A stretch of 64,000 bases of DNA, taken from Burkholderiales bacterium (GTDB lineage Bacteria; Pseudomonadota; Gammaproteobacteria; Burkholderiales; Burkholderiaceae_C). The stretch spans positions 52,865 through 116,864 of the forward strand of contig JAGWTU010000014.1 in NCBI GenBank assembly GCA_028868825.1, given 5' to 3'. A model generated the notes under the pieces. The model made no database searches. It was not told the DNA's origin and saw only the letters and a list, made by a program, of their open reading frames with translations. The first letter of the stretch is position 1; every line of letters starts with the position of its first letter. A program made the position numbers and the translations under genes. Shown here piece after piece: positions 4,535-22,892 of this stretch.

Positions 4535-5587
4535 ATGAGCACGCTGACCCTGACTCGACATACCCGGCAACTGCCCCGCCGGCACCCGAAGCTGTTCCTG
4601 GGGGCGGCGGCGCTGTTCTGGTTCGCGCTCTACCAGGCGCTGAATCCGGCGTCCGAGGCGCTGGTCGCGGCCGCCTCGGTCGATCGCGGCAGCCCCCTGG
4701 GCGCCGCCCTGCAGTTCTTCCTCTACGACACGCCCAAGGTGCTGTTGCTGCTCACCGCCGTGGTGTTCGTGATGGGCATGATCAACTCCTATTTCACGCC
4801 GCAGCGCACCCGCGCCCTGCTGGCCGGCAGGACCGAGGGCGTGGCCAACGTGATGGCCGCCAGCCTGGGCATCGTGACGCCGTTCTGCTCCTGCTCTGCC
4901 GTGCCGCTGTTCATCGGTTTCGTGCAGGCCGGCGTGCCGCTGGGGGTGACCTTCTCGTTCCTCATTTCCGCGCCGATGGTCAACGAGGTGGCGCTGGCGC
5001 TGCTGTTCGGCCTCTTCGGCTGGAAGATCGCCGCCCTCTACATGGGCCTGGGCCTGACGGTGGCCATCGTCGCCGGCTGGGTCATCGGCCGCCTGCGCAT
5101 GGAAGCGCACCTCGAAGACTGGGTGCGCGAGATGCCCCAGGTGCAGGCTGCGGCCGCCGGCGACGGCATGACCCTGGCCGATCGCATCGAAGCCGGATAC
5201 ACCAGCGTGCGCGAGATCGTCGGCAAGGTCTGGCCGTACATCCTGGCCGGCATCGCCGTCGGCGCGGCGATCCACGGCTGGGTGCCGCAGGACTTCATGG
5301 CGTCGTTCATGGGCCGGGACGCCTGGTGGTCGGTGCCGCTGGCGGTGCTCATCGGCGTGCCGATGTACACGAACGCGGCCGGCATCATTCCCATCGTGCA
5401 GGCGCTGCTGGCCAAGGGCGCCGCGCTGGGCACCGTGCTCGCCTTCATGATGAGCGTGATCGCGCTTTCGCTGCCCGAGATGATCATCCTGCGCAAGGTG
5501 CTGAAGCTGCGCCTGATCGCCACCTTCGCGGGCGTCGTCGCCGCCGGCATCCTGATCGTCGGCTACGTCTTCAATGCGGTGCTCTGA
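4535..5587 (+). CDS. arsP: Permease of DUF318/ArsP family
   Basis: 350 aa membrane protein; NVMAASLGIVTPFCSCSAVPLFIGFVQAGVPLGVTFSFLISAPMVNEVAL is diagnostic for this family. Confidence 0.8.
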   Translation: MSTLTLTRHTRQLPRRHPKLFLGAAALFWFALYQALNPASEALVAAASVDRGSPLGAALQFFLYDTPKVLLLLTAVVFVMGMINSYFTPQRTRALLAGRTEGVANVMAASLGIVTPFCSCSAVPLFIGFVQAGVPLGVTFSFLISAPMVNEVALALLFGLFGWKIAALYMGLGLTVAIVAGWVIGRLRMEAHLEDWVREMPQVQAAAAGDGMTLADRIEAGYTSVREIVGKVWPYILAGIAVGAAIHGWVPQDFMASFMGRDAWWSVPLAVLIGVPMYTNAAGIIPIVQALLAKGAALGTVLAFMMSVIALSLPEMIILRKVLKLRLIATFAGVVAAGILIVGYVFNAVL

Positions 5588-5622
5588 GCGCACCGCCCCT
5601 TCCTCGATTCAAGGAGAAACCC

Positions 5623-5856
5623 ATGGACATCAAGGTACTCGGCAGCGGCTGCGCCAATTGCAAGAACACGGTCGCGCTGATCGAGCAGGCTGCGAAAGAC
5701 AAGGGCGTGGCCGTGACACTCAGCAAGGTCGAGGACCTGCGCGACATCGTGAGCTACGGCGTGATGTCGACACCGGCGGTGGTCATCGACGGCAAGGTCG
5801 TCCACGCCGGGGGCGTGCCGCAGCGGGCCAAGGTCGAACAGTGGCTGGGCGGCTGA
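5623..5856 (+). CDS. Small thioredoxin-family (redox-active disulfide) protein
   Basis: MDIKVLGSGCANCKNTVALIEQ...MSTPAVVIDGKVVHAG; CxxC; 77 aa. Confidence 0.88.
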   Translation: MDIKVLGSGCANCKNTVALIEQAAKDKGVAVTLSKVEDLRDIVSYGVMSTPAVVIDGKVVHAGGVPQRAKVEQWLGG

Positions 5857-5947: not shown

Positions 5948-7090
5948 CTATTCGGAGCCGAGCTTGATGCCCGAAGGCATCCGCCGCTCGATGGAAGACT
6001 TGAGCAACGACGCCAGGCGGTAGAACCCATGGGCGAACTTCCCGTAGGGCAGCGTCAGAAACAAGGCCATGACGATGCCGAGATGGATCGCCAACAGCAG
6101 GGCCATGCCCGCAGTCTCCCGTCCGGCCATCAATGCAAGTCCCGTCAGGCTGGCCGCGAACAGCAGCAAGATGAATGCACGATCCATCGTGCGCTGCGCG
6201 GGGTCTCCGTGTGCGGCGTTTCGACGCAGGTTCAGCCACATCAGGCCCGCCGGTCCCGCGAGCAGGCCGGCTCCACCGACGGTCCCGAGGATCACCGGAA
6301 GACTGGTCAACGCATAGGGCGCCGATAGCCCCAGGACGTAGTGATACAGCGTGGCCACCGCAGTCGATGCGACGCAGAGCGCGAAGCCATAGAAAGTCAG
6401 GTGGTGGAAGCGGCGCCGCCGCAGCGTGAACCGGTCGTCCTCGTCGTTGCAACCTTCGCCGTGGCCACCATCGAGATACTTCAGGGTCAAGGCATGACCG
6501 ACGGCCTCGGTGGCTGCGCCTCGCATCGAGGTGCCCGGCCTCACGTCGCGCCAGAAGCGCCCGACGCCGATGGCCAGTGCCACCGATGAATACGTGAAGA
6601 CCGAGCCGAACAGCAAGACGAGCGTGCGGTGCGGAAACACGGCATAGAAATTCCCCCGCGCCGGCGTCTGGAACAGGCTGCCGGTCATGGCCAGCGCCAA
6701 CAGCAGGAACAAGGTCAGGCTGGCCGCCGCGGCCACGGCAAGGGTCGGGCCGCTGGACTCGTACAGCCGGCCCAGAACCGAGGGCCACGCGTAGTCGCGG
6801 TAGGTCTGCCCGCGCACCGTCGCCAGCGACCGGGGTACGTTGACGGCAAACTCGTGAGGGGGCGCGTACTGGCAGGCATGCAGACAGGCGCCGCAACTGT
6901 GGCAGAGATTGGCCAGGTAGTGAATGTCGGCCCGCACATCGAAACCGATGCGGCGGGTCATGGCGGGAAAGACCCCGCAATAGCCCTCGCAGTAACGGCA
7001 GGAATTGCAGATCTGCATGACCCGGGACACCTCCTTCTCGGCCTCGGACAAGGGCCTGCCCAGCCAGGCGGCGGATGGCTCATTCAGCAC
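5948..7090 (-). CDS. tcuB: Tricarballylate utilization 4Fe-4S protein TcuB-like
   Basis: [21 protein letters not shown]...[23 protein letters not shown], then membrane helices. Confidence 0.85.
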
Positions 7091-7123: not shown

Positions 7124-8575
7124 TCATGGCTCACGCGAGGACGAAACCGGCCCGGCCTGCGGCCCGCGGGCCGACCGTGCCGCCTCCATTCCGGCAATGC
7201 GCCCGAATGCCGTACCGATGGCCATGCCGATGCCCCCGGTGTATCCCTTGCCAAGGACATTACCCGAGATGATTTCACCGGCACCGAAAAGGTTCGGACT
7301 GCCTCGCCCGCCGAAATGAACCCGCGCCCGCGCATCGGACTTCAGGCTCAGGTACGTGAAAGTGATACCCGGGCGCAGGGCAAAGCCGTGAAAGGGAGGT
7401 TCGTCGATCGGCATCGCCCAATGCGATTTCGCAGGCGTCAGACCCTCGGTATGGCAGTCGTCCAGCGCCGTGTGGTCGAATCTTCCGACGCGACAGGCCG
7501 CGTTGTATGCGGCTATCGTGCGCACCAGCGCGGCAGGTTCCAGACCCAGCTTCGAAGCCAATTCCGCAACCGTATCGGCCTTCTCGCCGGGGAAGACCGG
7601 CGGCATGAACCGGCCCAGGGCCTTGGCATCGATCACGGAATAACCGATCTGATCCGGCTGCATGGCCACGAGGCGCCCCCAGATGGCATAGCGCTTGGGC
7701 CAGAAGTCCTCGCCCTCGTCGTAGAAGCGCTGTCCGTTCCGGTTCACCATGATGCCCAGTGACACGCAGTCCACCCGGGTGCAGATACCGCCATCGTAGA
7801 GCGGCGCTCGCGCATCGATCGCCACGCAGTGCGATTGCGACGGATCGCCGATCATGTCGGCGCCGGCGTCCTGCATGAATTTCAGCATGACCCCTTGATT
7901 GAACCGGGTGCCTCGAATGAGGAAATTGTCAGCGGGCCATTCACCCCGCTCGTTGCAGCCCCAGACCTCCCGCAGCCATTGCCGATTCGATTCGAAACCG
8001 CCCGCCGCCAGCACGCAGGCCTGGCCCTCGATCCTTTCGCTGCCCACCCGGGCCGCCAGGAAGCGACCATCATCGATATCCAGCGAGGTCACCGGCGCGT
8101 CGTACCGGATCGCCACGCCCAGGGCCCGCGCGCTGCGGTAATAGGCATTCACCAACGCCTTGCCGCCCCCCATGAAGAACGCATTGGTACGGGACAGGTG
8201 CAGCGTTCCGGAGAGCGAGGGCTGGAATCGGACGCCCTGCCTGCGCATCCAGTCCCGACAATCGGCCGTGCTGCGGATCACCATGCGAGCGAGGGCCTCG
8301 TCGGTCTGACCTCCGGTCACCTTGAACAGGTCCTGCCAGTATTCCTCCTCGGGGTAGGACTCCAGCAGCACGTCCTGAGGGGCGTCGTGCATGCAGCGGA
8401 TATTGCGCGTGTGCTGCGAGTTGCCGCCGCGCCACTCCTTGGGCGCGGCCTCCAGCATCAGCACGCTCGCTCCTGCTTCGCGCGCCGAGATGGCGGCACA
8501 CAATGCGGCGTTGCCGCCACCGACGACGACGACATCCCACATGGCGGCCTTGCGCGTAGCGCCCCGCACGGTCAA
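7124..8575 (-). CDS. tcuA: FAD-dependent tricarballylate dehydrogenase TcuA-like
   Basis: MWDVVVVGGGNAALCAAISAREAGASVLMLEAAP...RGGNSQHTRNIRCMHD; C-terminal GEIISGNVLGKGYTGGIGMAIGTAFGRIAG. Confidence 0.85.
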   Translation of the reverse strand: MTVRGATRKAAMWDVVVVGGGNAALCAAISAREAGASVLMLEAAPKEWRGGNSQHTRNIRCMHDAPQDVLLESYPEEEYWQDLFKVTGGQTDEALARMVIRSTADCRDWMRRQGVRFQPSLSGTLHLSRTNAFFMGGGKALVNAYYRSARALGVAIRYDAPVTSLDIDDGRFLAARVGSERIEGQACVLAAGGFESNRQWLREVWGCNERGEWPADNFLIRGTRFNQGVMLKFMQDAGADMIGDPSQSHCVAIDARAPLYDGGICTRVDCVSLGIMVNRNGQRFYDEGEDFWPKRYAIWGRLVAMQPDQIGYSVIDAKALGRFMPPVFPGEKADTVAELASKLGLEPAALVRTIAAYNAACRVGRFDHTALDDCHTEGLTPAKSHWAMPIDEPPFHGFALRPGITFTYLSLKSDARARVHFGGRGSPNLFGAGEIISGNVLGKGYTGGIGMAIGTAFGRIAGMEAARSARGPQAGPVSSSREP

Positions 8576-9375
8576 TGCTGCCCGCGCTCGCGAAGCATGG
8601 CCTTGTCGACCTCGACCGACAGCGCATCGGTGACGCGCTTCATGTGCCGCGCCACCGCCGGATCACCCACTTCGCGAGGGTGGGGCAATTCGACGATCTC
8701 CTCGTGAACGATCCCGGATGGGCGGTTGCCGAAGACCACCACCCGGTCGGCCATCAGCACCGCTTCCTGCACGCTGTGGGTAACCATCAGGATGGTCTTG
8801 TCGGCCTCCTTCCAGAGGGAATGCAGGTCCTTGATCATGTAATTCTTGGTCTGCACGTCGAGGGCGCCGAAAGGCTCGTCCAGCAGCAGCACCTCCGGGT
8901 TGTAGGCGATCGCCCGTGCAATCGCCACGCGTTGCTTCATCCCCCCCGAAAGGGTCGACGGGTAGGCATTCTCGAATCCGGACAGGCCGGTCGCTCGTAT
9001 CCACCGGCGAGCGATCCCTTCGGCATCCTGCCGAGGCATCTTCTGCAGTTCGAGCCCGAGCGTGATGTTGCGCAGCACCGTGCGCCAACCGAAGAGCACG
9101 AATTCCTGAAACACCAGGCCGCGGTCCCGCCCCGGACCCGTGATCGGCTTGCCACTGAGGAGGATCTCGCCCGAACTCGCCTTCTCGAACCCGGCCACCA
9201 TGTACAGAAAGGTCGACTTGCCGCAACCCGAGGGGCCGATGATGGCGACGAACTCGTTCTCCGAGATCGAGAAGTTCAGATTGTCGATCGCGACCACCTG
9301 CTCGCCGGTCTCCTGATTGACGAATGTCTTGTTCAGGTTCCGGACGACGATCTTCTTGTTCCGCTCTTGTACCAC
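8572..9375 (-). CDS. NitT/TauT-type ABC transporter ATP-binding protein
   Basis: GTG start at 9375; Walker A GPSGCGKSTFL, LSGGMKQRVAIARA signature, LLLDEPFGALD; overlaps tcuA start by 4 bp. Confidence 0.9.
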   Translation of the reverse strand: MVQERNKKIVVRNLNKTFVNQETGEQVVAIDNLNFSISENEFVAIIGPSGCGKSTFLYMVAGFEKASSGEILLSGKPITGPGRDRGLVFQEFVLFGWRTVLRNITLGLELQKMPRQDAEGIARRWIRATGLSGFENAYPSTLSGGMKQRVAIARAIAYNPEVLLLDEPFGALDVQTKNYMIKDLHSLWKEADKTILMVTHSVQEAVLMADRVVVFGNRPSGIVHEEIVELPHPREVGDPAVARHMKRVTDALSVEVDKAMLRERGQH

Positions 9376-9398: not shown

Positions 9399-10229
9399 TC
9401 AACGCTCGACCTGCACGCCCCAACGCTTCGTGGTCACGGCCTCGATCCTGCCCATGACGATGTTCTCCAGGATATAGCCCATCAGCGCGATCAGCAGGAT
9501 GCCGCCGAATATCGTGTCCATGCTCAGGTACTCGACGGCGTCGTAGATCATGAAGCCCAGGCCGAAGCCGCTGGCCGCCAGCATCTCGGCGGCAATCAGC
9601 GAGCGCCACGCAAAGCCGATGCCCAGTTTCACGCCGGTGATCAGGAAGGGAAAGATGCCCGGCAGTGCGACGATCCAGACGCAACGCATGCGGCTCGCGC
9701 CCATGGACTGCGCCACCCAGAACGCCTTGTCGCTCAACGCGTCCAGGCCCGCCGCCACGTTGTAGATGATCTGGAAGCTCGCCGAGAGAAATACGACGGT
9801 GATCGTGGTTCGATCGTCGATGCCGAAGATCAGCAGCAGAATCGGCGTCCAGGCCAGGGTCGGCACCGGCATCATGGCGCTGACGACGGGCTGAAGAATC
9901 CGACGCCCCCATTTCGTCAGGCCGATCAGCAGGCCCACGATGCTGCCGAACACGATGGCGAGCAGGATGCCGGCCAGGATCCGGTACAGGCTGGCCCCGA
10001 GATGGGCCCAGAGCCCGTACGGCGGCGTGCCCGCAGGTCCTGCTTGCAGCCACAGCGCCGCGAGGATCGTGCTCGGCCGCGGGATCAGCGCCACGTTCAT
10101 CCAGCCCAGCTTGCCGGCGATCTCCCAAAGCACCAGGAGGCCGGTGATCGTCAGCGTCGGGCGCATCCAGCGCGCCTGGCGTCGCCATCCGAATCGGGAC
10201 CCCTGGAGGGTCGTCGCTGTCGCGCTCAT
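9399..10229 (-). CDS. NitT/TauT-type ABC transporter permease
   Basis: ATG at 10229; MPVPTLAWTPILLLIFGIDDRTTITVVFLSASFQIIYN...GASRMRCVWIVALPGIFPFLITGVKLGIGFAWRSLIAAEM. Confidence 0.9.
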   Translation of the reverse strand: MSATATTLQGSRFGWRRQARWMRPTLTITGLLVLWEIAGKLGWMNVALIPRPSTILAALWLQAGPAGTPPYGLWAHLGASLYRILAGILLAIVFGSIVGLLIGLTKWGRRILQPVVSAMMPVPTLAWTPILLLIFGIDDRTTITVVFLSASFQIIYNVAAGLDALSDKAFWVAQSMGASRMRCVWIVALPGIFPFLITGVKLGIGFAWRSLIAAEMLAASGFGLGFMIYDAVEYLSMDTIFGGILLIALMGYILENIVMGRIEAVTTKRWGVQVER

Positions 10230-11074
10230 CGCGTCCGCCTGCCCCGTTGCGGGTACCAGCGGCGGATCGTGGCACGCTCGACCGCACCGAAAAGGAGGTG
10301 TTCGATCGAGAACCCGAGTATCGCCAGCAAGGCGATGCCGACGAACATGGACGGCACGTCGGCATAGGCCCGGGCCGCAAAGATCATGTAGCCCAGACCG
10401 AACGAAGCCGCAGCGAGCATCTCGGCGGCCACCAGGGTCCGCCAGGAATGGGCCAGTCCCAGTTTGAAGCCCGTGATGAGCGTGGGCAGCGAGGATGGCA
10501 ATAGCACCCTGAAGAAGACGTGCAACCGGGACGCGCCCATCGACCGGACGACCCACAAGGCGTGCTGCGGAATGGCCTGCACGCCCTGGATCGTGCTGTA
10601 GGCGATGGGGAAGAAGGCGCCGAGGAAGCAGACGCTGATGATCGTCGCGTCACCGCGCCCCATGGTCACCAGGAATATCGGCGTCCACGCGACGGCCGGC
10701 AGCGGCAACAGCAGGCTCAGCACGGGACTGAACCAGGCATGCGCGCTGCGGCTGAGACCGAGCACGAAGCCGAACGGGACGGCGACCAGCGCGGCGAGGA
10801 CGAAGGCCACCAGCGCACGCAGGAGGCTGTGTGCCATGTGCGAGACCAGCACATGGTTGTTCGATGCACCCATCAATTCGAGACCCCGCACGACGATGGT
10901 GTGCGGCGCGGGCAGGACCTTCAAGTCCAGGAGTCCGAACCGGACCACCGCCTCCCAGATCAGCAGCAGCGCGAGGTTCGGGGCGATATAGGCCAGGCCG
11001 GACTGCAGGCGCTTCGGAATCCAGCCTGCGCGTTGGCGCGCGGGCGGTTCCAACTTGATCGACGAACAGTCCAT
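10226..11074 (-). CDS. NitT/TauT-type ABC transporter permease
   Basis: MDCSSIKLEPPARQ... ; LLPLPAVAWTPIFLVTMGRGDATIISVCFLGAFFPIAYSTIQGV; 4-bp overlap with the next gene. Confidence 0.88.
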   Translation of the reverse strand: MDCSSIKLEPPARQRAGWIPKRLQSGLAYIAPNLALLLIWEAVVRFGLLDLKVLPAPHTIVVRGLELMGASNNHVLVSHMAHSLLRALVAFVLAALVAVPFGFVLGLSRSAHAWFSPVLSLLLPLPAVAWTPIFLVTMGRGDATIISVCFLGAFFPIAYSTIQGVQAIPQHALWVVRSMGASRLHVFFRVLLPSSLPTLITGFKLGLAHSWRTLVAAEMLAAASFGLGYMIFAARAYADVPSMFVGIALLAILGFSIEHLLFGAVERATIRRWYPQRGRRTR

Positions 11075-11112
11075 TCGGTAATCTCGATCGGTTGAGAGGC
11101 GCGACCCGGAAC

Positions 11113-12075
11113 TCATCGGGACTGCGTTCGTTTCCGGGGCGCGGCCGTGCGGCGGGCGACCGGCTTTCCTGCCGGTTCGGCCGGCTTCGCGCCGGTGGCC
11201 ATGCCGACGAGGGCGTCGAGCTGACGAACCTGTTCGGCCGGCAGGTACTGGTGCCGCAAGGAATAGAGCGCAGGACCGAAGCGGCTTTCGAGTTGCTTGC
11301 CGAAATGGGCAAAGATCTCCGCCACGTAGATTTCGTGCCGAATCAGGCTCTCCGCCATGTTGACGACCGGGCGGCTGCGCGTGAACACGCCGTAGCCTTT
11401 GGGCCCGGTGGTCGCCGTCATGGCCTCCTCGAAATCCCGCGTCATCGTCACGAGCCAATCGCTCAAGCCCACCGCGGCGCCGCTGCTTTCGTGCAGATAG
11501 ACCTTGACCTGGCCACCGAAGTCGTATTCCACCAGATCCGCGGGACTGCCGAACAGGATGATCAGGATGCGCGCGCCGCGCCGGGCGGCCTGCCGCAACG
11601 GTTCGATGTGCGGCCGCAGCAGGTGATGCGCCGCCTTGATCCAGACATGCACCTTGGCCTGCTCGATGAGGTCGTCCATCTTGGCGTGGATATGCGCGTT
11701 CCCGCTGAGCGTCCAGACGAACTCCGTCGCTTCCACCGCCTTGGTGGCGATCAGCTGTTCAGCCAGGCTGTCGCATCGGTTCGCCGTTTCCCGCTGGATG
11801 CGATCGAGCAGCTGACGGGGTTCGACCGGCACGTAACGCACCGGGTTCTCGTTCACCGGCTGCACGGCCAGCTTCTTTTCGAGCGTGGCCAAGGCGTTGT
11901 AGACGTTCGCGCGCGGCAGCCCCGCCCGCTTGCTGATCTCGTAGGCGGTGGCCGGGAACTCGCGCAGCAGGCTCAGGTAGACCTTGGCTTCGTACCCGGT
12001 GAAGCCCAGCTGCTGCAGTGCTTCGGCCTGCTCGCCGTGATGGGTCAGGCCGGGCTCGCTATCGTCGCGCTGCAT
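11113..12075 (-). CDS. TrmB-family transcriptional regulator
   Basis: EALQQLGFTGYEAKVYLSLLREFPATAYEISKRAGLPRANVYNALATLEKK is a TrmB HTH; C-terminal domain VHVWIKAAHHLLRPHIEPLRQAARRGARILIILFG. Confidence 0.82.
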   Translation of the reverse strand: MQRDDSEPGLTHHGEQAEALQQLGFTGYEAKVYLSLLREFPATAYEISKRAGLPRANVYNALATLEKKLAVQPVNENPVRYVPVEPRQLLDRIQRETANRCDSLAEQLIATKAVEATEFVWTLSGNAHIHAKMDDLIEQAKVHVWIKAAHHLLRPHIEPLRQAARRGARILIILFGSPADLVEYDFGGQVKVYLHESSGAAVGLSDWLVTMTRDFEEAMTATTGPKGYGVFTRSRPVVNMAESLIRHEIYVAEIFAHFGKQLESRFGPALYSLRHQYLPAEQVRQLDALVGMATGAKPAEPAGKPVARRTAAPRKRTQSR

Positions 12076-12088
12076 GGTCAGACGGCGA

Positions 12089-12856
12089 TCATTTCAGGAT
12101 CGAGTAATCGACGGCCCGCCCGACGCCCCGTCGCAATCCCTCGAGGCGCAGGCACTGTCCCGCCGTGATGTTGGCGAGATTGATCTCGGCTCCGAAGTCC
12201 TTTATCAGCTGTGCATGCTGCTGCGGAAAGCGGTAGGGATCGGCCTCGACCATCAGGTGGGCGAACCAGGCTTGCCTCGCCAGTTCGGCGAGCGCCCCGG
12301 GCGATGTCGCAGCGATCATGTCGATCTCGCTCTGTTCGATGATGACGTGCTCGATCTCCATCCCCTGCACCTCGGCCACGAGCCTGCCCAGATCATCGAG
12401 GCCGAACGGTGCCGCGGGATTCTTGCGCCCGAATTCGTAGATCACCTCGAAGCCGTCGCTCTGCGCCTGCCGGATGTAGGCTTGACGCTCGCCCGGCTGG
12501 AGTTCCAGGTAATTCTCGGAGATTTCCATGGACGCTATCCCCAGACCCTTGAGGTGACGCAGCATGTCCGGGAACGAATGAGTCCGGCAGGCATATTCGA
12601 ACAGGATCCCGCCCGAATAGGCCTTGATCCCGGCATCCTGATAAAGGCCGACGACCGATTGGATGGTCTTGCGAGGCGCGAGCAGCGCGTTCATCGCATA
12701 GATCTTCGCGAAATCGATGTAGTCCGCGGCGTAGTCGAGCAGGTCCCGGACGCCCTGCACGCCCGTCCAGCCGAAGGTGTCGGGGCCGAAGTCGATCACC
12801 GACGTCGTGCCGATGCGGCGGGGCTTGGCGGAGCGGGGCGGCAGTGCGAAGGTCAT
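12089..12856 (-). CDS. ComA (phosphosulfolactate synthase, PF02679)-like protein
   Basis: DYAADYIDFAKIYAMNALLAPRKTIQSVVGLYQDAGIKAYSGGILFEYA...GIASMEISENYLELQPGERQAYIRQAQSDGFEVIYEFGRKNP resembles ComA/HSA32 family motifs (GGTLFE, EISDG, EvGKK). Confidence 0.75.
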   Translation of the reverse strand: MTFALPPRSAKPRRIGTTSVIDFGPDTFGWTGVQGVRDLLDYAADYIDFAKIYAMNALLAPRKTIQSVVGLYQDAGIKAYSGGILFEYACRTHSFPDMLRHLKGLGIASMEISENYLELQPGERQAYIRQAQSDGFEVIYEFGRKNPAAPFGLDDLGRLVAEVQGMEIEHVIIEQSEIDMIAATSPGALAELARQAWFAHLMVEADPYRFPQQHAQLIKDFGAEINLANITAGQCLRLEGLRRGVGRAVDYSILK

Positions 12857-12880: not shown

Positions 12881-14068
12881 TCAGAGGGTGACCACGGCTC
12901 GCAATTCGGCGATGCGTCTGGCCGAGAGATGCAAATCGCCCGACAGGATCAGTCTTGCGGTGCGTTCTATCTTGGCGCCACGGATGGCATATCCGCCATC
13001 GCCACGCGGCTCGACGTCGGCCTCGACCTGCAGCACGCCGCTCGGGTGTCCCAGGCGGGTGTATCCCGCCCGCCCCGCCGCCCGGCATTCCGCCGCCACG
13101 CTGCCCTGGAGGGCCGACGCGACGGCCGTGCAGACGCTGCCGACGACCGCCAACGCCTTGTGTGGCTTCTGCATGGCCAGTTGGCGCACGACGAGGTCGG
13201 CCTCGCCGGCACCGACCCGGCGCCCGTCGACGGAGGTGTAGTCGGCGGGGGCCGACACCATGATCACGCGCGGCACGTTGGGGGACTTCGCGACGGCGTC
13301 CCGCGCATCGTCGACGCGGCCGATGGCCTGCGCGGCCCAGCCGCGCACGGCCTCGAGCCGCGCCATCAGGGCGAGGTTTGCGGCGATTTCAGCGGGCAAC
13401 TCGGTGCCCTTCGCACCGAGATCCGCGGCCTTCACGAAGACGAACGGCGTCGCCGCGTCGACGAGCGAGACATCCATGTCGATGCCGTCGATCGTGATGC
13501 GGTCGCGGACCCGTCCCGTGGGCAGCAATTGGCCCGTCACGGCCCCGCTGCAATCGCCGAAGTCCAGCATGATCCGCGCGCCCGCGCTCGGCACGCCCGC
13601 GATCCGGCAATCGCCCTCGACGGCGGGCAGTTCCCCGTCCATCGGGATTTGCGCCGTCACCACTTGCCTGGTGTTCGTGGTGTAGATGCGGACCACGGTC
13701 ACGCCCGGGGTCGGCTGCACCAGGCCGCGATAGATCGCGAAAGGCCCGACGGCCGACAGCATGTTGCCGCAGTTGCCGCCCGTCGCGACCTGGGGACGAT
13801 CGATGCCGATCTGGCAGAACGTGTAGTCCACATCGGCGCCGGGATGCGCGGAGCGGGCGATCACGGCCGCCTTGCTCGTCAGCGCGTCTGCGCCTCCGAT
13901 GCCGTCGATCTGACGCAGATCGGGCGAGCCGTAGGCGGCCAGCAGCCAAGCGGCCCGGTCCAGAGGCTCGGACGGCAGGTCCTGCGCCAGGAAGAAGCCG
14001 CCTCGACTCGATCCGCCTCGCATGAGATAGCACGGCAGCGCGTGCTGACCGGTCTGAAGCAGGCCCAT
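12881..14068 (-). CDS. PrpF-family isomerase (2-methylaconitate/aconitate isomerase-like)
   Basis: ALPCYLMRGGSSRGGFFLAQDLP...QIDGIGGADALTSKAAVI...GNCGNMLSAVGPFAI is diagnostic of PrpF. Confidence 0.9.
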   Translation of the reverse strand: MGLLQTGQHALPCYLMRGGSSRGGFFLAQDLPSEPLDRAAWLLAAYGSPDLRQIDGIGGADALTSKAAVIARSAHPGADVDYTFCQIGIDRPQVATGGNCGNMLSAVGPFAIYRGLVQPTPGVTVVRIYTTNTRQVVTAQIPMDGELPAVEGDCRIAGVPSAGARIMLDFGDCSGAVTGQLLPTGRVRDRITIDGIDMDVSLVDAATPFVFVKAADLGAKGTELPAEIAANLALMARLEAVRGWAAQAIGRVDDARDAVAKSPNVPRVIMVSAPADYTSVDGRRVGAGEADLVVRQLAMQKPHKALAVVGSVCTAVASALQGSVAAECRAAGRAGYTRLGHPSGVLQVEADVEPRGDGGYAIRGAKIERTARLILSGDLHLSARRIAELRAVVTL

Positions 14069-14072
14069 GGGC

Positions 14073-15485
14073 TCAGGCCGCAAGCAGCACGGGCTTGCCG
14101 TCGACGGCGACGGAAAGCGACGGCAGGACACCGGCGTTCGTTTCGGATTCGAGTGCCATGATGCGACGGCTGATGCTGTCGACGGCCGCCGAGTCCTTCA
14201 TGACCATCGACGCCAGGCCTTTGAACTTGCGTTCGAGCTCGACCTCGGTCAGTGGATTGTTCGGCTCGCCGCGCGGTTCCTCAGAACGCAACTGGAGATG
14301 CCGACCGTCCTTCGTGTCGATCTCGACGATGGCCTGGCGGCCGGTCAGGCCGAACTCCTCCTCGGCGACCAGCGTCACCTTGCTCGAGGCCACGTCATGG
14401 ATGTTCCGGTTCTCGTAGCCCGACCAGTAATCGCGCAGGCCGTTGGCACCGGTCTCCAGGGCCAGCGCGACGCCGAATTGCGTGCTGCCCATGGCGGCAT
14501 TGAGGTTCGTGACCTTGGGCTTGGAGGCCTGGCGGATCGCCATCGTGCTCATGTGCACGGTGACCGTCTCGACATCGCCCACGCGCACGCCGTGCTTCCA
14601 GTACAGGTCCTGCGCGAGATCGATCGGCCCGTGGGCATAGCGGCAGGCCGCGTGCGGCTTGAATCCGACTTCCATGATCGCGTATTCGCTGCCGAGACCG
14701 TCCAGCAGGTCGGCGACGCGGACCGAATCCGTGAAGGCGTTGAAGAAGCCTTCGCGGCTCTCGAGCACCTTCTTCGGGCCACTGAATCCCCGGCTGGCCA
14801 TCACGGCGGCGATGGTGCCGTTGAAGGCGGACTTGCCGGGGCTGAAAGGCTTGGCGATGCAGGGATCGTCGAGGTAGGACTGGATGCCGGCGGACTGCAT
14901 GCCGGCGAGCCCGATGGCCCATGCGATCTGCTCGGCATTGCAGCCCAGAAGCCGCGCGCCCATGGCGGCCGCGCCCAGGCACGAGACCGTGCCGGTCGTG
15001 TGATAGCCGCGCGAGCGGTGCCCCGGGTTGATGGCCTTCGCGACGCGAATGGCCAATTCGTAGCCGGCCACCAGGGCGGTGATGACCTCCTTGCCGGGGA
15101 TGCCCCTGAATTCGGCGATCGCATTGGCGGTCGGCACGAGCACCGAGCCCGCCTTGATCAGGCCGGAGCCATGGGCGTCGTCGAGTTCGACGCCGTGACC
15201 CATCATCGCATTGCACATGGCCGCGTGCGGCAGCGGCACCTTGAAGCCGAAACCGATCACGGTGGCCTGCGGCGCGCCGCCCCATTCGCGAACCAGATCG
15301 ACCATGCGGATGGCCGGCTCGCCGATCGCGGAAGCGGCAATCTGGTTGCCCATGCCGTCGCGCAGGATCAGCTTGGCCTTGTTGACCACGGATTCGGGCA
15401 GGTCCTCGAACCGGAGGTTTGCGATGTGATCCGCGAAGCGCAGGGTCAGGCCAGTCAGATCGTCTTGGCTATAGCTCGTGGACAT
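14073..15485 (-). CDS. MmgE/PrpD-family protein
   Basis: LTLRFADHIANLRFEDLPESVVNKAKLILRDGMGNQIAA...GHGVELDDAHGSGLIKAGSVLVPTANAIAEF. Confidence 0.92.
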   Translation of the reverse strand: MSTSYSQDDLTGLTLRFADHIANLRFEDLPESVVNKAKLILRDGMGNQIAASAIGEPAIRMVDLVREWGGAPQATVIGFGFKVPLPHAAMCNAMMGHGVELDDAHGSGLIKAGSVLVPTANAIAEFRGIPGKEVITALVAGYELAIRVAKAINPGHRSRGYHTTGTVSCLGAAAMGARLLGCNAEQIAWAIGLAGMQSAGIQSYLDDPCIAKPFSPGKSAFNGTIAAVMASRGFSGPKKVLESREGFFNAFTDSVRVADLLDGLGSEYAIMEVGFKPHAACRYAHGPIDLAQDLYWKHGVRVGDVETVTVHMSTMAIRQASKPKVTNLNAAMGSTQFGVALALETGANGLRDYWSGYENRNIHDVASSKVTLVAEEEFGLTGRQAIVEIDTKDGRHLQLRSEEPRGEPNNPLTEVELERKFKGLASMVMKDSAAVDSISRRIMALESETNAGVLPSLSVAVDGKPVLLAA

Positions 15486-15528: not shown

Positions 15529-16500
15529 TCACTTCCCGCGCTGCGCGATCGAGGATTCGTAGAACTTCCTGTTCACCAGCGCCTTGAAATCGGGCATCTG
15601 CTTGATGCGCTTGGCGGCCAGCATCGATTCGGCCACCGGCGTCAACTCGGCCAGCATCTCGTCCTTGATCTCGGGATTCACGTTGATGCGGGTCAGCGCC
15701 AGGGCCATCGCCTTCGGATCGACCTGAACGCCCTTCTTGGCGATCTGCGCGGCGGCCAGGCGCCCGGCCTCCGGGGCGTCCTTGCGTATCAATTCGGATT
15801 CTTCCCAGGCCGCGGCCAGGAACCTCGAGACCGCCGAGGGATTCGCATCCGCAAACTTGCGCGAGACGAGATAGAAGTTGGGACTTTCGTTCACGCCCTT
15901 GAGCGAAATGATGCGCTTGGCCACGCCGGCGGTTTCCGCCAGCGCCACCTGCGGTTCCCAGGCCACGGCCGCATCGAGCAGACCTTGGCTCAGCGCGGAT
16001 TGCATGTCCTGCACTTTCATGTTGATCATCTGGAAGTCGGCCTCCGCCATTCCGTTTTGCTGCAGGTAGAGCCGGAACGTGCTGTTGGATCCCGACCCGC
16101 CGACGGTGCCGACCTTCTTGCCCCGGAGTTCCTGGATCGTCTTCGCGCCGGAACCCGACGGCACCATGACGCCATAGCGATCCCCGCCCGATTGACGCAC
16201 GGCCACGATGTAGAACGAATCGGGCTGCGTGGCGGCCAGGGTCACCAGGCGCCCGGATCCGCCGTCGGCGATGTCGATCCTGCCGGCGATGAAGGCCTGC
16301 ATCATGTCGCCACCGGACGAGAACTCGGAGACTTCCGCCTTCAGGCCATGCGGACCGAGCCAGTCCTTCGCCATGAAGACGGCGTCCGGCGGAATCGACT
16401 GCACGCCGACGCGGATCGTCGTTCCAACCTGCGCATGGGCGGAACCCGAGGCACCGACCATGCCGGCGAGGACCAGGGATGCCAGGGCTTTGAACATGCT
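15529..16500 (-). CDS. ABC transporter substrate-binding protein (NMT1/SsuA-like)
   Basis: Signal peptide MSMFKALASLVLAGMVGASGSAHAQ, then TIRVGVQSIPPDAVFMAKDWLGPHGLKAEVSEFSSGGDMMQAFIAGRIDIADGG; alternative upstream ATG at 16518. Confidence 0.87.
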   Translation of the reverse strand, partial: SMFKALASLVLAGMVGASGSAHAQVGTTIRVGVQSIPPDAVFMAKDWLGPHGLKAEVSEFSSGGDMMQAFIAGRIDIADGGSGRLVTLAATQPDSFYIVAVRQSGGDRYGVMVPSGSGAKTIQELRGKKVGTVGGSGSNSTFRLYLQQNGMAEADFQMINMKVQDMQSALSQGLLDAAVAWEPQVALAETAGVAKRIISLKGVNESPNFYLVSRKFADANPSAVSRFLAAAWEESELIRKDAPEAGRLAAAQIAKKGVQVDPKAMALALTRINVNPEIKDEMLAELTPVAESMLAAKRIKQMPDFKALVNRKFYESSIAQRGK

Positions 16501-16522
16501 CATGAGCGCTCCGATCAAGAGT

Positions 16523-17964: not shown

Positions 17965-18125
17965 AGGGATTTCCCGTAAGAGCCATGCCAAAGACGGCAA
18001 GTCTGATTCCTGAGAAGTCTATCTAGGCAGAAGGCCCACCGATTTCTACATTGGCGTCATCGACTGCAGCGGCACGACTCCTCCGAGCCACCGGCAGCCC
18101 CCCCCTCACGAGCCTGGAGACGCCA

Positions 18126-18977
18126 TTGAAACTCATCAGCTTCATCGATGCCGGACAGCCCCTCTACGGCATCGTCCAGGGCGAGCGCACCCTGCGGCCG
18201 CCCGCCGAATTCCTGGGTCGATTGCCGGACCTGCGGGCCGTGCTCGAGGCCGGCGCCCTGAGTGAGCTGCAGCAGGTCACGGCAAAAGACGGCATCGCCG
18301 TCGATCCCGCCACCGTCAAGGCCTTGCCGGTGCTGCCGAACCCCGGCAAGTTGATCTGCGTCGGCCTCAACTACAAGACCCACGTCGCCGAGACCCAGCG
18401 CGCCGACAGCGCCCATCCGTCGCTGTTCCTGCGCTTCAACGACACGCTCGCGGCAGCGGACGACATCGTGCTGCGACCGGCCTTTTCCGATCGCTTCGAC
18501 TGGGAAGGCGAACTGGCCTTCGTGATCGGCAAGGGCGGCCGGCACATCCCGAAAGCGCAGGCCTTCGAGCACATCGCCGGGTATGCCTGCTTCAACGACA
18601 TCAGCGTCCGTGACTGGCAGCGCCATACACACCAGTTCACGCCGGGCAAGAACTTCCCCGGCACCGCGCCGTTCGGTCCCTACCTCGTCACGCGCGACGA
18701 AGTCCCCGACGTGACGCAGCTGACGCTGGAGACGCGGCTCAACGGCCAGGTGATGCAGCACGCCGACATCGCCGACCTGATCTTCGACATCCCGGTGCTC
18801 GTCGAATACATCTCGCGCTTCACGCCGCTCGCACCGGGCGACGTCATCGCCACCGGCACGCCCGGCGGTGTCGGCGACCGCCGTGTGCCGCCGCTGTACA
18901 TGAAGGAAGGCGACGTGGTCGAGGTGGAGATCACCGGCCTGGGCGTGCTGCGCAACCGCATCGGCACCGACGCCTGA
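18126..18977 (+). CDS. Fumarylacetoacetate hydrolase-family protein
   Basis: TTG start; KLICVGLNYKTHVAET...FDWEGELAFVIGKGGRHI...VIATGTPGGVGDRR. Confidence 0.88.
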   Translation: MKLISFIDAGQPLYGIVQGERTLRPPAEFLGRLPDLRAVLEAGALSELQQVTAKDGIAVDPATVKALPVLPNPGKLICVGLNYKTHVAETQRADSAHPSLFLRFNDTLAAADDIVLRPAFSDRFDWEGELAFVIGKGGRHIPKAQAFEHIAGYACFNDISVRDWQRHTHQFTPGKNFPGTAPFGPYLVTRDEVPDVTQLTLETRLNGQVMQHADIADLIFDIPVLVEYISRFTPLAPGDVIATGTPGGVGDRRVPPLYMKEGDVVEVEITGLGVLRNRIGTDA

Positions 18978-18993
18978 CGCAGGAGAACAGCCA

Positions 18994-21075
18994 ATGAGCA
19001 CCCACCGACCCCAATTGCGCATCGCCGTCGACATCGGCGGCACATTCACCGACATGGCGGCCTTCGACGAATCCAGCGGCAAGCTGCTGTTCGGCAAGGC
19101 GCTGTCGACCCACGGCGAGCTCGTCAACGGCATACAGGCGACGATCGACAGCGCAGGCATCGACTGGCGCGACGGCAACCTGTTCCTGCACGGCTCGACG
19201 ATCGCGATCAACACGCTGCTCGAGCGCACCGGCGCCAACACCGCGCTGCTCATCACCGAAGGTTTCCGCGACATCTACGAGATCGGCCGCGTCAACCGGC
19301 CCGACGCCTACAACCTCTTCTTCAACAAGCACCAGCCGCTGGTGCGGCGCTCGCTGCGCTTCGAAGTGGCCGAGCGGCTGCGCGCCGACGGCAGCACGCA
19401 CAAGGCGCTGGACGAGGCGGCGGTGCGCGAGCTGGCCCGCGAGCTGAAGGGGCAGAAGGTCGAAGCGGTCGCCGTGCTGCTGCTGCATTCGTATCGCAAC
19501 CCGGCGCACGAGCAGCGCGTCAAGCAGATCCTGCAGGAAGAGATACCCGGCGCCTTCGTCTGCGCCTCGCACGAGCTGAGCCAGGAGTACCGCGAATTCG
19601 AACGCGTCTCCACCGCCGTGGCCAATGCCTATGTCGGCCCGCGCGTCTCGGAGTACCTGGGCCAGCTCGAGAGCCACCTGGGCAGCCGCGGCTTCGATGG
19701 CGACTTCTACATCGTGCAGTCGACCGGCGGCCTGTTCCCGGTCGAGCACGCCAAGGTCGGCTGCGTGCGGATGCTGGAATCGGGGCCCGCGGCCGGTGTC
19801 ATCGGTGCCCAGGCCATCTGTGCCCAGCTCGGCATGGGCGACGCGATCGCCTTCGACATGGGCGGCACGACCGCCAAGGCCGGCGTGATCAGCGCCGGCC
19901 GGCCGCTGACGACGGGCTCGGCCTTGATCGGCGGCTACGAGCGCGCCCTGCCGATCCAGATCCCGATGATGGATATCCACGAAGTCGGCACCGGCGGCGG
20001 CAGCATCGCGCGCGTCGAGACCGGCAGCGCGCTGCGCGTCGGGCCGCAGAGCGCGGGGTCGATTCCCGGCCCGGTGGCCTATGGCCGCGGCGGCACCGAG
20101 CCGACGGTCACCGATGCCAACCTGCTGCTCGGGAGGCTCGATGCCGAGCACTTCCTCGGCGGCGAGCTCAAGCTCGATCTCGACGGCTGCCAGCGCCAGA
20201 TGCGCGAGCGCGTGGCCAAGCCGCTGGGCCTGGACCCGACGGCGGCGGCCGACGGCATCCTGCGCATCGCGGTGACGCAGATGTCGCACGCCGTGAAGGC
20301 CGTGACCACCGAGCGCGGCCTGGACGCCGGCAGTTTCACGATGGTCGTCTACGGCGGCGCCGGTCCGCTGCATGCGTCGGCCATCGCCCGCGAGATCGGC
20401 ATCCGCAAGGTGCTGATTCCGTACGCGCCCGGCTATTTCTCGGCCTACGGCATGCTGTTCTCCGACCTGCGCTACGACTATGTGCGCTCGGTGTTCCGCA
20501 AGCTGGGTGACGTCTCCTTCGACGAGATCGAGGCGGCGTACAAGACGATGGAGGACGAGGGTCGCGCGGCGCTGGCGCAATCGGGGATCGATCCCGATGA
20601 CGTGGTGATCGAGCGCGCTGCCGATATGCGCTATGTCGGCCAGGAACACGCCGTCGCAGTCGACCTGCCGTTGAGCTTCTTCGCGGGCAAGGACCGCTCT
20701 GCCATCAAGCAGCAGTTCGACGAGCTGCACAAGGTCCGCTACGGCACCTCGGCGCCGAAGGAGCCGGCCGACCTCGTCAGCCTGCGCGTGACCGTGCTGG
20801 GCAAGATGAAGAAGCCGCCCAAGCACAGTGTGGACGCAGGTGCGGCGACACCGGACAAGCGCGCCGTACGGGCCGTCAAACCGGTGTATTTCCGCGCCGG
20901 CGGCTGGGCCGACACGCCGGTCTACCTGCGCGAGCGGCTGCTCGCCGGCAACGTCATAGCCGGCCCTGCCCTCATCGAGGAACACGCCTCCACCACCGTC
21001 GTGCAGCCCGGCGACGAGCTCCGCGTGGATGAACTCGGCAACCTGCAAATCGCCATCGGGAGCGACCGCTCATGA
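18994..21075 (+). CDS. hyuA: Hydantoinase/oxoprolinase family protein, A-type subunit
   Basis: LRIAVDIGGTFTDMAAFD...LHGSTIAINTLLERTGANTALLITEGFRDIYEIGR; 693 aa. Confidence 0.92.
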   Translation: MSTHRPQLRIAVDIGGTFTDMAAFDESSGKLLFGKALSTHGELVNGIQATIDSAGIDWRDGNLFLHGSTIAINTLLERTGANTALLITEGFRDIYEIGRVNRPDAYNLFFNKHQPLVRRSLRFEVAERLRADGSTHKALDEAAVRELARELKGQKVEAVAVLLLHSYRNPAHEQRVKQILQEEIPGAFVCASHELSQEYREFERVSTAVANAYVGPRVSEYLGQLESHLGSRGFDGDFYIVQSTGGLFPVEHAKVGCVRMLESGPAAGVIGAQAICAQLGMGDAIAFDMGGTTAKAGVISAGRPLTTGSALIGGYERALPIQIPMMDIHEVGTGGGSIARVETGSALRVGPQSAGSIPGPVAYGRGGTEPTVTDANLLLGRLDAEHFLGGELKLDLDGCQRQMRERVAKPLGLDPTAAADGILRIAVTQMSHAVKAVTTERGLDAGSFTMVVYGGAGPLHASAIAREIGIRKVLIPYAPGYFSAYGMLFSDLRYDYVRSVFRKLGDVSFDEIEAAYKTMEDEGRAALAQSGIDPDDVVIERAADMRYVGQEHAVAVDLPLSFFAGKDRSAIKQQFDELHKVRYGTSAPKEPADLVSLRVTVLGKMKKPPKHSVDAGAATPDKRAVRAVKPVYFRAGGWADTPVYLRERLLAGNVIAGPALIEEHASTTVVQPGDELRVDELGNLQIAIGSDRS

Positions 21076-22892
21076 GCACCGCCAACACCCACGGCACCAC
21101 CAAGCCCACTGTCACGGCCTCCACCACGGTGGACCCGGTCACCGTCGAGATCATCCGCAACGGGCTCTATGCCGTCACGGAAGAGATGAAGACCAACCTC
21201 ACGCGCACGGCCTACAACCTGATCATCTACGAGGCGCTGGATTTCACCGTCGGCCTGTTCACCAAGGAAGGTGACACGGTGTCGATCGGCCTGGGCCTGC
21301 CGATGTTCATCCGCGGCATGTCGGAAACGGTGAAGGCCAAGATCCGCCACTTCGGCTACGAGAACATCCTGCCCGGTGACATCCTCGTCACCAACGACGC
21401 CTACACGACCGGCAGCCACCTGAACCACTTCACGTTCACGATGCCGGTGTTCCACGAGGGCCGGCTCGAGGGCTTCACCTGCTGCATGGCGCACTGGCTG
21501 GACGTGGGCGGCACGCTGGGCAACGTCACCACCGACATCTTCAGCGAGGGGATCCAGATCCCCATCGTCAAGTACCAGCGCCAGGGCGTCGTCAACCAGG
21601 ACCTGATCGACATCATCGCGATGAACGTGCGGCTGGCCGAGCGCGCCCTGGGCGACCTGCGCGCGCAGATCACGGCCATCACGACTGGCGAGCGCCGCTA
21701 CGTCGAGCTGCTGCAGCGCTACGGTGCCGACGCGGTGAATGCGTCGGTGCGCCAGATCATGGACTCGTCGGAAGCCGTGGCGCGCAAGAACACGCTGTCG
21801 ATACCCGACGGCGTCTACGAGGCCGAATCGTTCATGGACGACGACGGCCTGGAGATCGGCAAGCGGATTCCGATCCGCGTCAAGGTCACCGTCCACGGCG
21901 ACGAGATGACGGTCGACCTGTCGGACGTCAGCAAGCAGGTGCGCGGCTTCTACAACTCGGGCTTCACGACGGGCATCGCCTGCGCGCAGGTGGCCTACAA
22001 GTGCCTGACGACGCCGACCGACTACCCGGTCAACGACGGCAGCTTCCGGCCGCTGAAGGTGATCATGCCGATGGGCACCGTCATCAGCGCCGAGCGGCCG
22101 TACCCGATGCGCGTGTGGATGACCTTCCCGATGACGGTGATCGACACGATCTTCAAGGCGCTGGCACCGGCGATCCCGCACCGTTCCATCGCCGGCCACC
22201 ATGCCGACCTCGTGTTTCCGAACATCCACGGCATCTCGCCGGAGGACGGCCGCCTGTTCATCGTCGGCATCGGCCCGCTCGGCGGCGGCTGGGGCGCCAA
22301 GAGCAGCGAGGACGGCGTCTCGGTCACCGTCTGCATCAACGACGGCGACACGCACAACAGCCCGACCGAACAGCTCGAGGCCAAGTACCCGGTGCTGGTC
22401 GAGAAGTACGAGATCCGCCGCGACAGCGCCGGCGCCGGCAAGTACCGCGGCGGCCTCGGCGCCGAGATGGTCGTGCAGGCCCTGTCGCCGTTCACCGTGA
22501 CGACGCGCATCGACCGCGTGCACTGCAAGCCCTGGGGACTCGAGGGCGGGGGCGACGCGATGGGCAACGGCCTGGCCGTGCGCCACAAGGGCGAATGGAA
22601 GACCGACCATCTGAACGCGAAGATCTTCAACGTGCGGCTGGAGCGAGGCGACGCCTACAAGATGCTGTCGGGCGGCGGCGGTGGCTTCGGCGACCCGCTG
22701 GAGCGCGACCTCGAGAAGGTCGCCGAGGATGTGCGCGAAGGCTATGTCAGCGCCGAGGTGGCGCGCGAGGTCTACCGCGTGGCGCTCGACTCCAAGGGCG
22801 AGGTGCACGCCGAGGCCACCCGGGCCCTGCGCCATGCGCCGCGCGCCCCGCGCAACGGCACGGCCGGTGATCTCGCCTGGGCCGGGCAGTGA
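21072..22892 (+). CDS. hyuB: Hydantoinase B/oxoprolinase family protein
   Basis: DPVTVEIIRNGLYAVTEEMKTNLTRTAYNLIIYEALDFTVGLF; GGGGGFGDPLERD; 4-bp overlap with hyuA. Confidence 0.92.
   Translation: MSTANTHGTTKPTVTASTTVDPVTVEIIRNGLYAVTEEMKTNLTRTAYNLIIYEALDFTVGLFTKEGDTVSIGLGLPMFIRGMSETVKAKIRHFGYENILPGDILVTNDAYTTGSHLNHFTFTMPVFHEGRLEGFTCCMAHWLDVGGTLGNVTTDIFSEGIQIPIVKYQRQGVVNQDLIDIIAMNVRLAERALGDLRAQITAITTGERRYVELLQRYGADAVNASVRQIMDSSEAVARKNTLSIPDGVYEAESFMDDDGLEIGKRIPIRVKVTVHGDEMTVDLSDVSKQVRGFYNSGFTTGIACAQVAYKCLTTPTDYPVNDGSFRPLKVIMPMGTVISAERPYPMRVWMTFPMTVIDTIFKALAPAIPHRSIAGHHADLVFPNIHGISPEDGRLFIVGIGPLGGGWGAKSSEDGVSVTVCINDGDTHNSPTEQLEAKYPVLVEKYEIRRDSAGAGKYRGGLGAEMVVQALSPFTVTTRIDRVHCKPWGLEGGGDAMGNGLAVRHKGEWKTDHLNAKIFNVRLERGDAYKMLSGGGGGFGDPLERDLEKVAEDVREGYVSAEVAREVYRVALDSKGEVHAEATRALRHAPRAPRNGTAGDLAWAGQ

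Follow-up and report, generated by a model that had tools for sequence, protein, structure and literature searches.

In coenzyme M synthesis, the phosphosulfolactate (PSL) synthase ComA (EC 4.4.1.19) attaches sulfite at the CH2 group of phosphoenolpyruvate (PEP). The enzymes that served us for comparison include MjComA of M. jannaschii (1qwg), the B. subtilis PSL synthase (1u83) and XcbB1 of Xanthobacter, and HSA32 presumably falls in the same Pfam family, PF02679. A second point of reference is the tricarballylate system of Salmonella, TcuABC, which uses the MFS carrier TcuC and the LysR regulator TcuR. Branched-dicarboxylate catabolism provides a third: the itaconate/methylsuccinate cluster of P. 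aeruginosa places an MmgE/PrpD gene beside a dedicated transporter, as does the locus described here, but it relies on CoA activation, and no ComA-like or TcuA gene has been reported from it (PMC9875883).

We analyzed a 64,000-nucleotide stretch of DNA from a Burkholderiales bacterium (hereafter the window) in which a ComA-like gene stands in a catabolic array. The encoded protein represents a separate branch of PF02679 without earlier assignment, which is found in bacterial tricarballylate-type catabolic operons and probably acts on a different substrate. Very probably, this branch is a non-PSL-synthase subfamily that serves polycarboxylate catabolism.

Fold and phylogeny

The open reading frame at 12089-12856 (minus strand, read from 12856 to 12089) encodes a 255-residue product with the motifs AYSGGILFEYA, MEISENYLEL and YEFGRKNP. 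Residues 7-245 match PF02679 (ComA) with 174.5 bits against a cut-off of 25.2, and the E value of 3.4e-51 means that the match is not due to chance. Family searches of the 5.8-Mb genome (98.5% complete), on which all genome-wide statements here rest, recovered this as the sole PF02679 protein. An AlphaFold model built with a 25-row alignment of relatives reached a mean pLDDT of 87, compared with 47 for a single-sequence prediction. Its top PDB match was 1qwg (TM 0.80, 29% identity) and its third was 1u83. The predicted structure is a ComA-type TIM barrel with homology to PSL synthase along its full length, and both score and fold match bear out the ComA-family assignment of the preliminary description.

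Judged by scores and phylogeny, this PF02679 member is nevertheless no PSL synthase orthologue. It scored 125.9 bits against the PSL synthase equivalog TIGR03849, far below the cut-off of 280, although that model describes archaeal ComA, and bacterial PSL synthases may fall short of it too, so that the score is not decisive alone. In a 70-row tree the protein fell into a clade of its own with support of 100/100, apart from a CoM-type group (99/89, two extra rows included) of MjComA, the B. subtilis and Xanthobacter XcbB1 proteins and other CoM-cluster sequences; no ComA of the coenzyme M or sulfolactate type fell within it. The clade holds about 45 relatives at 49-75% identity to the window protein, compared with 29-34% for characterized or solved ComA and at most ~30% for the other bacterial PF02679 branches sampled.

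Active-site residues

K51, E87, E111, E141, K145, E204, N229 and R242, which PSL synthase ComA and the window protein have in common, are kept together with S113 and E174 in 24 of 24 clade rows and in nearly all other rows. These columns likely form the catalytic core, their active-site roles being read from conservation. The strongest differences from CoM-type ComA, both overlooked in the preliminary description, are the loss of the RESG-loop arginine and two insertions. All CoM-type sequences sampled share the loop form R-E-S-G/A, with R176 present in 15 of 15, whereas every one of the 24 clade rows has S or C at this position. In ComA we infer that this arginine and its loop serve the PEP phosphate. 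The insertions, private to the clade, lie around GPDTFGW (residues 25-30) and DPYRFP (206-211), and further fixed differences change P206 to D and Q214 to H.

The preliminary description had read a possible shift in chemistry away from PEP plus sulfite out of two other motifs. Its GKK-to-GRK change proved uninformative, since R stands at this position in 5 of the 15 CoM-type sequences as well, and S in the one from B. subtilis. The change of EISDG to EISEN survived in part: G115 is diagnostic (always G among the 15 CoM-type sequences, always N among the 24 clade rows), but the D-to-E exchange is not. GRK and the D-to-E exchange were therefore dropped after alignment with the CoM-type sequences. 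The chemistry has probably shifted all the same, because the RESG arginine is lost, two private insertions are present and the clade is supported at 100/100.

Gene context in the window

Between 16518 and 5948, ten minus-strand genes arranged head to tail form an operon-like array in which the ComA-like gene is fourth. Assuming the most likely start codons, the first four gaps measure 43, 4, 24 and 13 bases; at each of the next two junctions the genes overlap by 4 bases, 23 bases then precede the ATPase gene, TcuA overlaps the end of that gene, and TcuB follows after 33 bases. The array begins with an SsuA/NMT1-type ABC substrate-binding protein (15529-16518; PF09084; TIGR01728 145.8 bits, cut-off 163.5), whose best solved relative is the aliphatic sulphonate-binding protein 2x26. 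An MmgE/PrpD family protein (14073-15485; PF03972 and PF19305) follows, most similar among solved structures to bacterial IRG1 (7e9d) and IDS-epimerase (2hp0), at ~105 bits each. The third gene encodes a PrpF family protein (12881-14068; PF04303, 370.6 bits) resembling OMA tautomerase and methylitaconate or methylaconitate isomerases. It scored 341 bits against NF033377, below the cut-off of 440, and its best solved relative is the 3-methylitaconate isomerase 3g7k; its ATG start at 14068 lies 4 bases past the MmgE stop, with an alternative GTG at 14131.

Downstream of the ComA-like gene lie a TrmB-family transcriptional regulator (11113-12075; PF01978), which recurs in clusters L002, L011, L031 and L040, and two ABC permeases of the TauC/SsuC type by profile matches (10226-11116 and 9399-10229), each start overlapping the preceding stop by 4 bases. 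An ABC ATPase (8572-9375, by profile matches; start uncertain, scanned open reading frame from 9450) completes the importer. The FAD-dependent tricarballylate dehydrogenase TcuA (7124-8575) scored 745 bits against NF006130 (cut-off 369) as the only match in the genome above cut-off, and the tricarballylate utilization 4Fe-4S protein TcuB (5948-7090) scored 630 bits against NF011607 (cut-off 524) and 411 against TIGR02484 (cut-off 247). By these profile scores TcuA and TcuB are the firmest functional calls of the array; the other partners are named at family level only. The array shares TcuA and TcuB, here adjacent, with Salmonella TcuABC but adds MmgE/PrpD, PrpF and the ComA-like enzyme, and its ABC importer and TrmB regulator stand where Salmonella has TcuC and TcuR.

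With TcuA and TcuB above NCBIfam equivalog cut-offs beside MmgE/PrpD and PrpF, the view that the neighbours act on aconitate-type acids held up. So did the reported lack of adjacent coenzyme M genes: profile searches found no ComB-, ComC- or ComDE-like gene in the window cluster, and by family search the genome as a whole lacks ComB (PF04029). Nor does the array contain the ADSL-type lyase and PLP enzyme cluster of bacterial coenzyme M loci. A genome search for the TPP-enzyme family gave 16 matches, which do not count for or against ComDE.

On the opposite strand, 18051-22892 holds a gene of the fumarylacetoacetate-hydrolase family with the genes for hydantoinase A and B behind it; in loci L009 and L092, too, hydantoinase B is encoded close to the ComA cluster. 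An ArsP_1-type permease gene and, after it, a small thioredoxin-like open reading frame with a CxxC motif (MDIKVLGSGCANCKN...) lie at 4535-5856, also on the plus strand.

Distribution of the clade

A scan of species genomes returned 43 relatives, and a denser sample of the order added more before identity dropped to ~30%. That denser sample lists 11 genomes from the same family as the window; none of them carries the gene, which is therefore accessory in this family. No phage relative was found.

Gene context was tallied over 47 clade loci, some of them cut off by contig ends; the counts are descriptive. The tally detected a TcuA-type FAD dehydrogenase (28 loci), class II aldolase (19), TctC (16), SnoaL (14), sulfatase (11), MmgE (11), PrpF (10) and an SsuA-type binding protein (6). 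Three settings recur. In setting A, MmgE-PrpF-ComA accompanies a TcuA-type dehydrogenase and an SsuABC-type transporter, including on annotated Bradyrhizobium and Paracoccus plasmids; the set also occurs in Alcaligenaceae and Hyphomicrobium. At the edge of the Alcaligenaceae cluster a nitrite/sulfite reductase gene (L031:247-1959, minus strand) was seen, which may be coincidence. Setting B consists of SnoaL-ComA-TcuA-like-aldolase II within a conserved chromosomal stretch, with TcuB in one case. In L017 and ~17 similar loci from betaproteobacterial MAGs, this block sits between glnE-ilvE-waaF and a phosphoglucomutase-type gene, a fixed position as if it were core rather than accessory in those genomes.

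Setting C comprises TctC, a formylglycine-type sulfatase and ComA. The sulfatase of the clade has an intact C-x-P-x-R motif, and formylglycine-type sulfatase genes adjoin RESG-less ComA in separate branches (L103, L104, L140 and, in setting C, L004-L042). Sulfatases release sulfate, not sulfite, and we therefore rejected this link as support for a sulfite step. Four consecutive genes of a Pigmentiphaga locus encode TctC, a fumarate-lyase/trans-aconitate-decarboxylase-like protein, ComA and TauE/SafE, and a partner gene in L030 has fumarate lyase, then trans-aconitate decarboxylase, as best solved relatives.

Proposed function and alternatives

Our best reading is that the ComA-like enzyme is a repurposed lyase for a C4-C6 unsaturated or sulfonated polycarboxylate, a substrate we infer. 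Itaconate, CH2=C(CH2COO-)COO-, is a close analogue of PEP in which carboxymethyl replaces the phosphate, and aconitate is a related acceptor. Since the core persists but the RESG segment has been exchanged, the simplest interpretation is an addition or elimination on an itaconate- or aconitate-type acid, which would take the place of PEP. The family chemistry would probably persist: a nucleophile would add to the carbon beta to a carboxylate, or be eliminated from it, by way of a stabilized enolate. We take the enzyme to belong to a catabolic module for a C4-C6 polycarboxylic acid, and the operon with its sulfonate-type importer leads us to favor, tentatively, elimination of sulfite. The importer would take up a sulfonated polycarboxylate, which MmgE and TcuAB would epimerize or dehydrogenate, epimerization by MmgE/PrpD supplying the right stereoisomer. 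The ComA-like enzyme would then desulfonate it to the unsaturated acid by retro-Michael elimination of sulfite, PrpF would isomerize this acid toward the TCA cycle, and the freed sulfite would be exported or oxidized. Substrate, direction, leaving group and order of steps are all putative in this scheme.

Our support for elimination of sulfite stays tentative because sulfite as the partner is the weak link. The sulfur hints are the SsuA-like binding protein and TauE/SafE beside the Pigmentiphaga member and near another RESG-less lineage; SsuA/NMT1 and TauE/SafE are broad families, and the sulfite part of the reading is circumstantial. An initial view of TauE as strong sulfite evidence was toned down, as the genome carries five TauE genes over cut-off, none in the window, and adjacency occurs at 1 of 47 clade loci. 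No recognized sulfite gene was found in the clade's SnoaL, TcuA-like and class II aldolase or TctC and sulfatase contexts. Also counting against this explanation, TcuAB alone already explains tricarballylate use.

These points leave an almost equally likely, likewise tentative, competitor, in which the same catabolic module works without sulfite and the enzyme adds or removes water, or isomerizes or epimerizes an aconitate-, itaconate- or methylitaconate-type acid together with MmgE and PrpF. The confidently named cluster enzymes, TcuA and TcuB, both act on sulfur-free polycarboxylates, and the solved relatives of the partners (IRG1 and IDS-epimerase, 3-methylitaconate isomerase, and the fumarate lyase and trans-aconitate decarboxylase of L030) fit such a role. 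Replacement in the clade of the entire RESG segment, kept by all CoM-type ComAs, points the same way, and MmgE/PrpD proteins can act as epimerases (PMC9875883). The SsuA-type transporter and the TauE/SafE genes beside some relatives would then be left unexplained. Moreover, we know of no PF02679 member that is a hydratase or isomerase.

A true PSL synthase forming phosphosulfolactate from PEP and sulfite, for instance in sulfite assimilation or detoxification, is improbable. The fold is alike and the core Lys, Glu and Arg residues are retained, but this is outweighed by the TIGR03849 score, the arginine loss in 24/24 rows with two private insertions, the genome without ComB or an adjoining CoM-pathway lyase/PLP cluster, and the clade's consistent link with polycarboxylate catabolism. 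We consider a regulatory or otherwise non-catalytic operon passenger more improbable still. Several unrelated-looking neighbourhoods do hold the subfamily, yet identical partners turn up in distant genomes, and a charged core invariant in 24/24 rows from Alpha- and Betaproteobacteria argues for catalysis. The earlier picture of a ComA-family protein outside a coenzyme M context, in an aconitate/tricarballylate-type operon and with probably altered chemistry, thus stands, with aconitate plus sulfite as a putative chemistry.

Literature searches returned no measured activity for any enzyme of the clade and no paper joining MmgE or PrpF with PSL synthase. The operon offers an obvious substrate panel, which makes the question of substrate directly testable. 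If sulfite elimination is correct, it would add a type of C-S bond-cleaving enzyme; in marine sediments, sulfonates reportedly account for 20-40% of the organic sulfur (PMC5573963).

Other branches of PF02679

The automatic label on the clade proteins, 'phosphosulfolactate synthase', is probably wrong for the clade and apparently for several other PF02679 branches as well, and would wrongly imply that coenzyme M or sulfolactate is made. Further RESG-less branches also lie in catabolic neighbourhoods with MmgE/PrpD, TTT transporters or TcuA-like genes. In a third ComA branch (L110, L131 and L132), three MmgE/PrpD genes stand in a TTT-transporter cluster, with TauE/SafE nearby and a GntR/UTRA regulator in both L110 and L132. 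RESG-less ComA is found with TcuA-like, PrpF, Ldh_2 and MmgE genes in L141, with MmgE and TTT genes in L108 and L143, and with sulfatase and TctC in L104 and L140. The six CoM-type loci examined instead had CoM-pathway lyases and PLP enzymes, or ComB, and none had the MmgE/PrpD, TTT, TcuA-like, sulfatase or TctC contexts. It is possible, though rather speculative, that several PF02679 branches in proteobacterial operons have been repurposed as a new class of sulfite lyase, in which the ComA fold would run in reverse and strip sulfite from sulfonated di- and tricarboxylic acids, the Michael adducts that sulfite forms with acids of the aconitate, itaconate or fumarate type.

On an Arthrobacter plasmid (L100:3251-9091), a RESG-less ComA is accompanied by an ABC transporter, a CocE/NonD hydrolase, thioredoxin reductase, thioredoxin and a UGSC-family protein, and CocE also adjoins a ComA of the same branch in L138.
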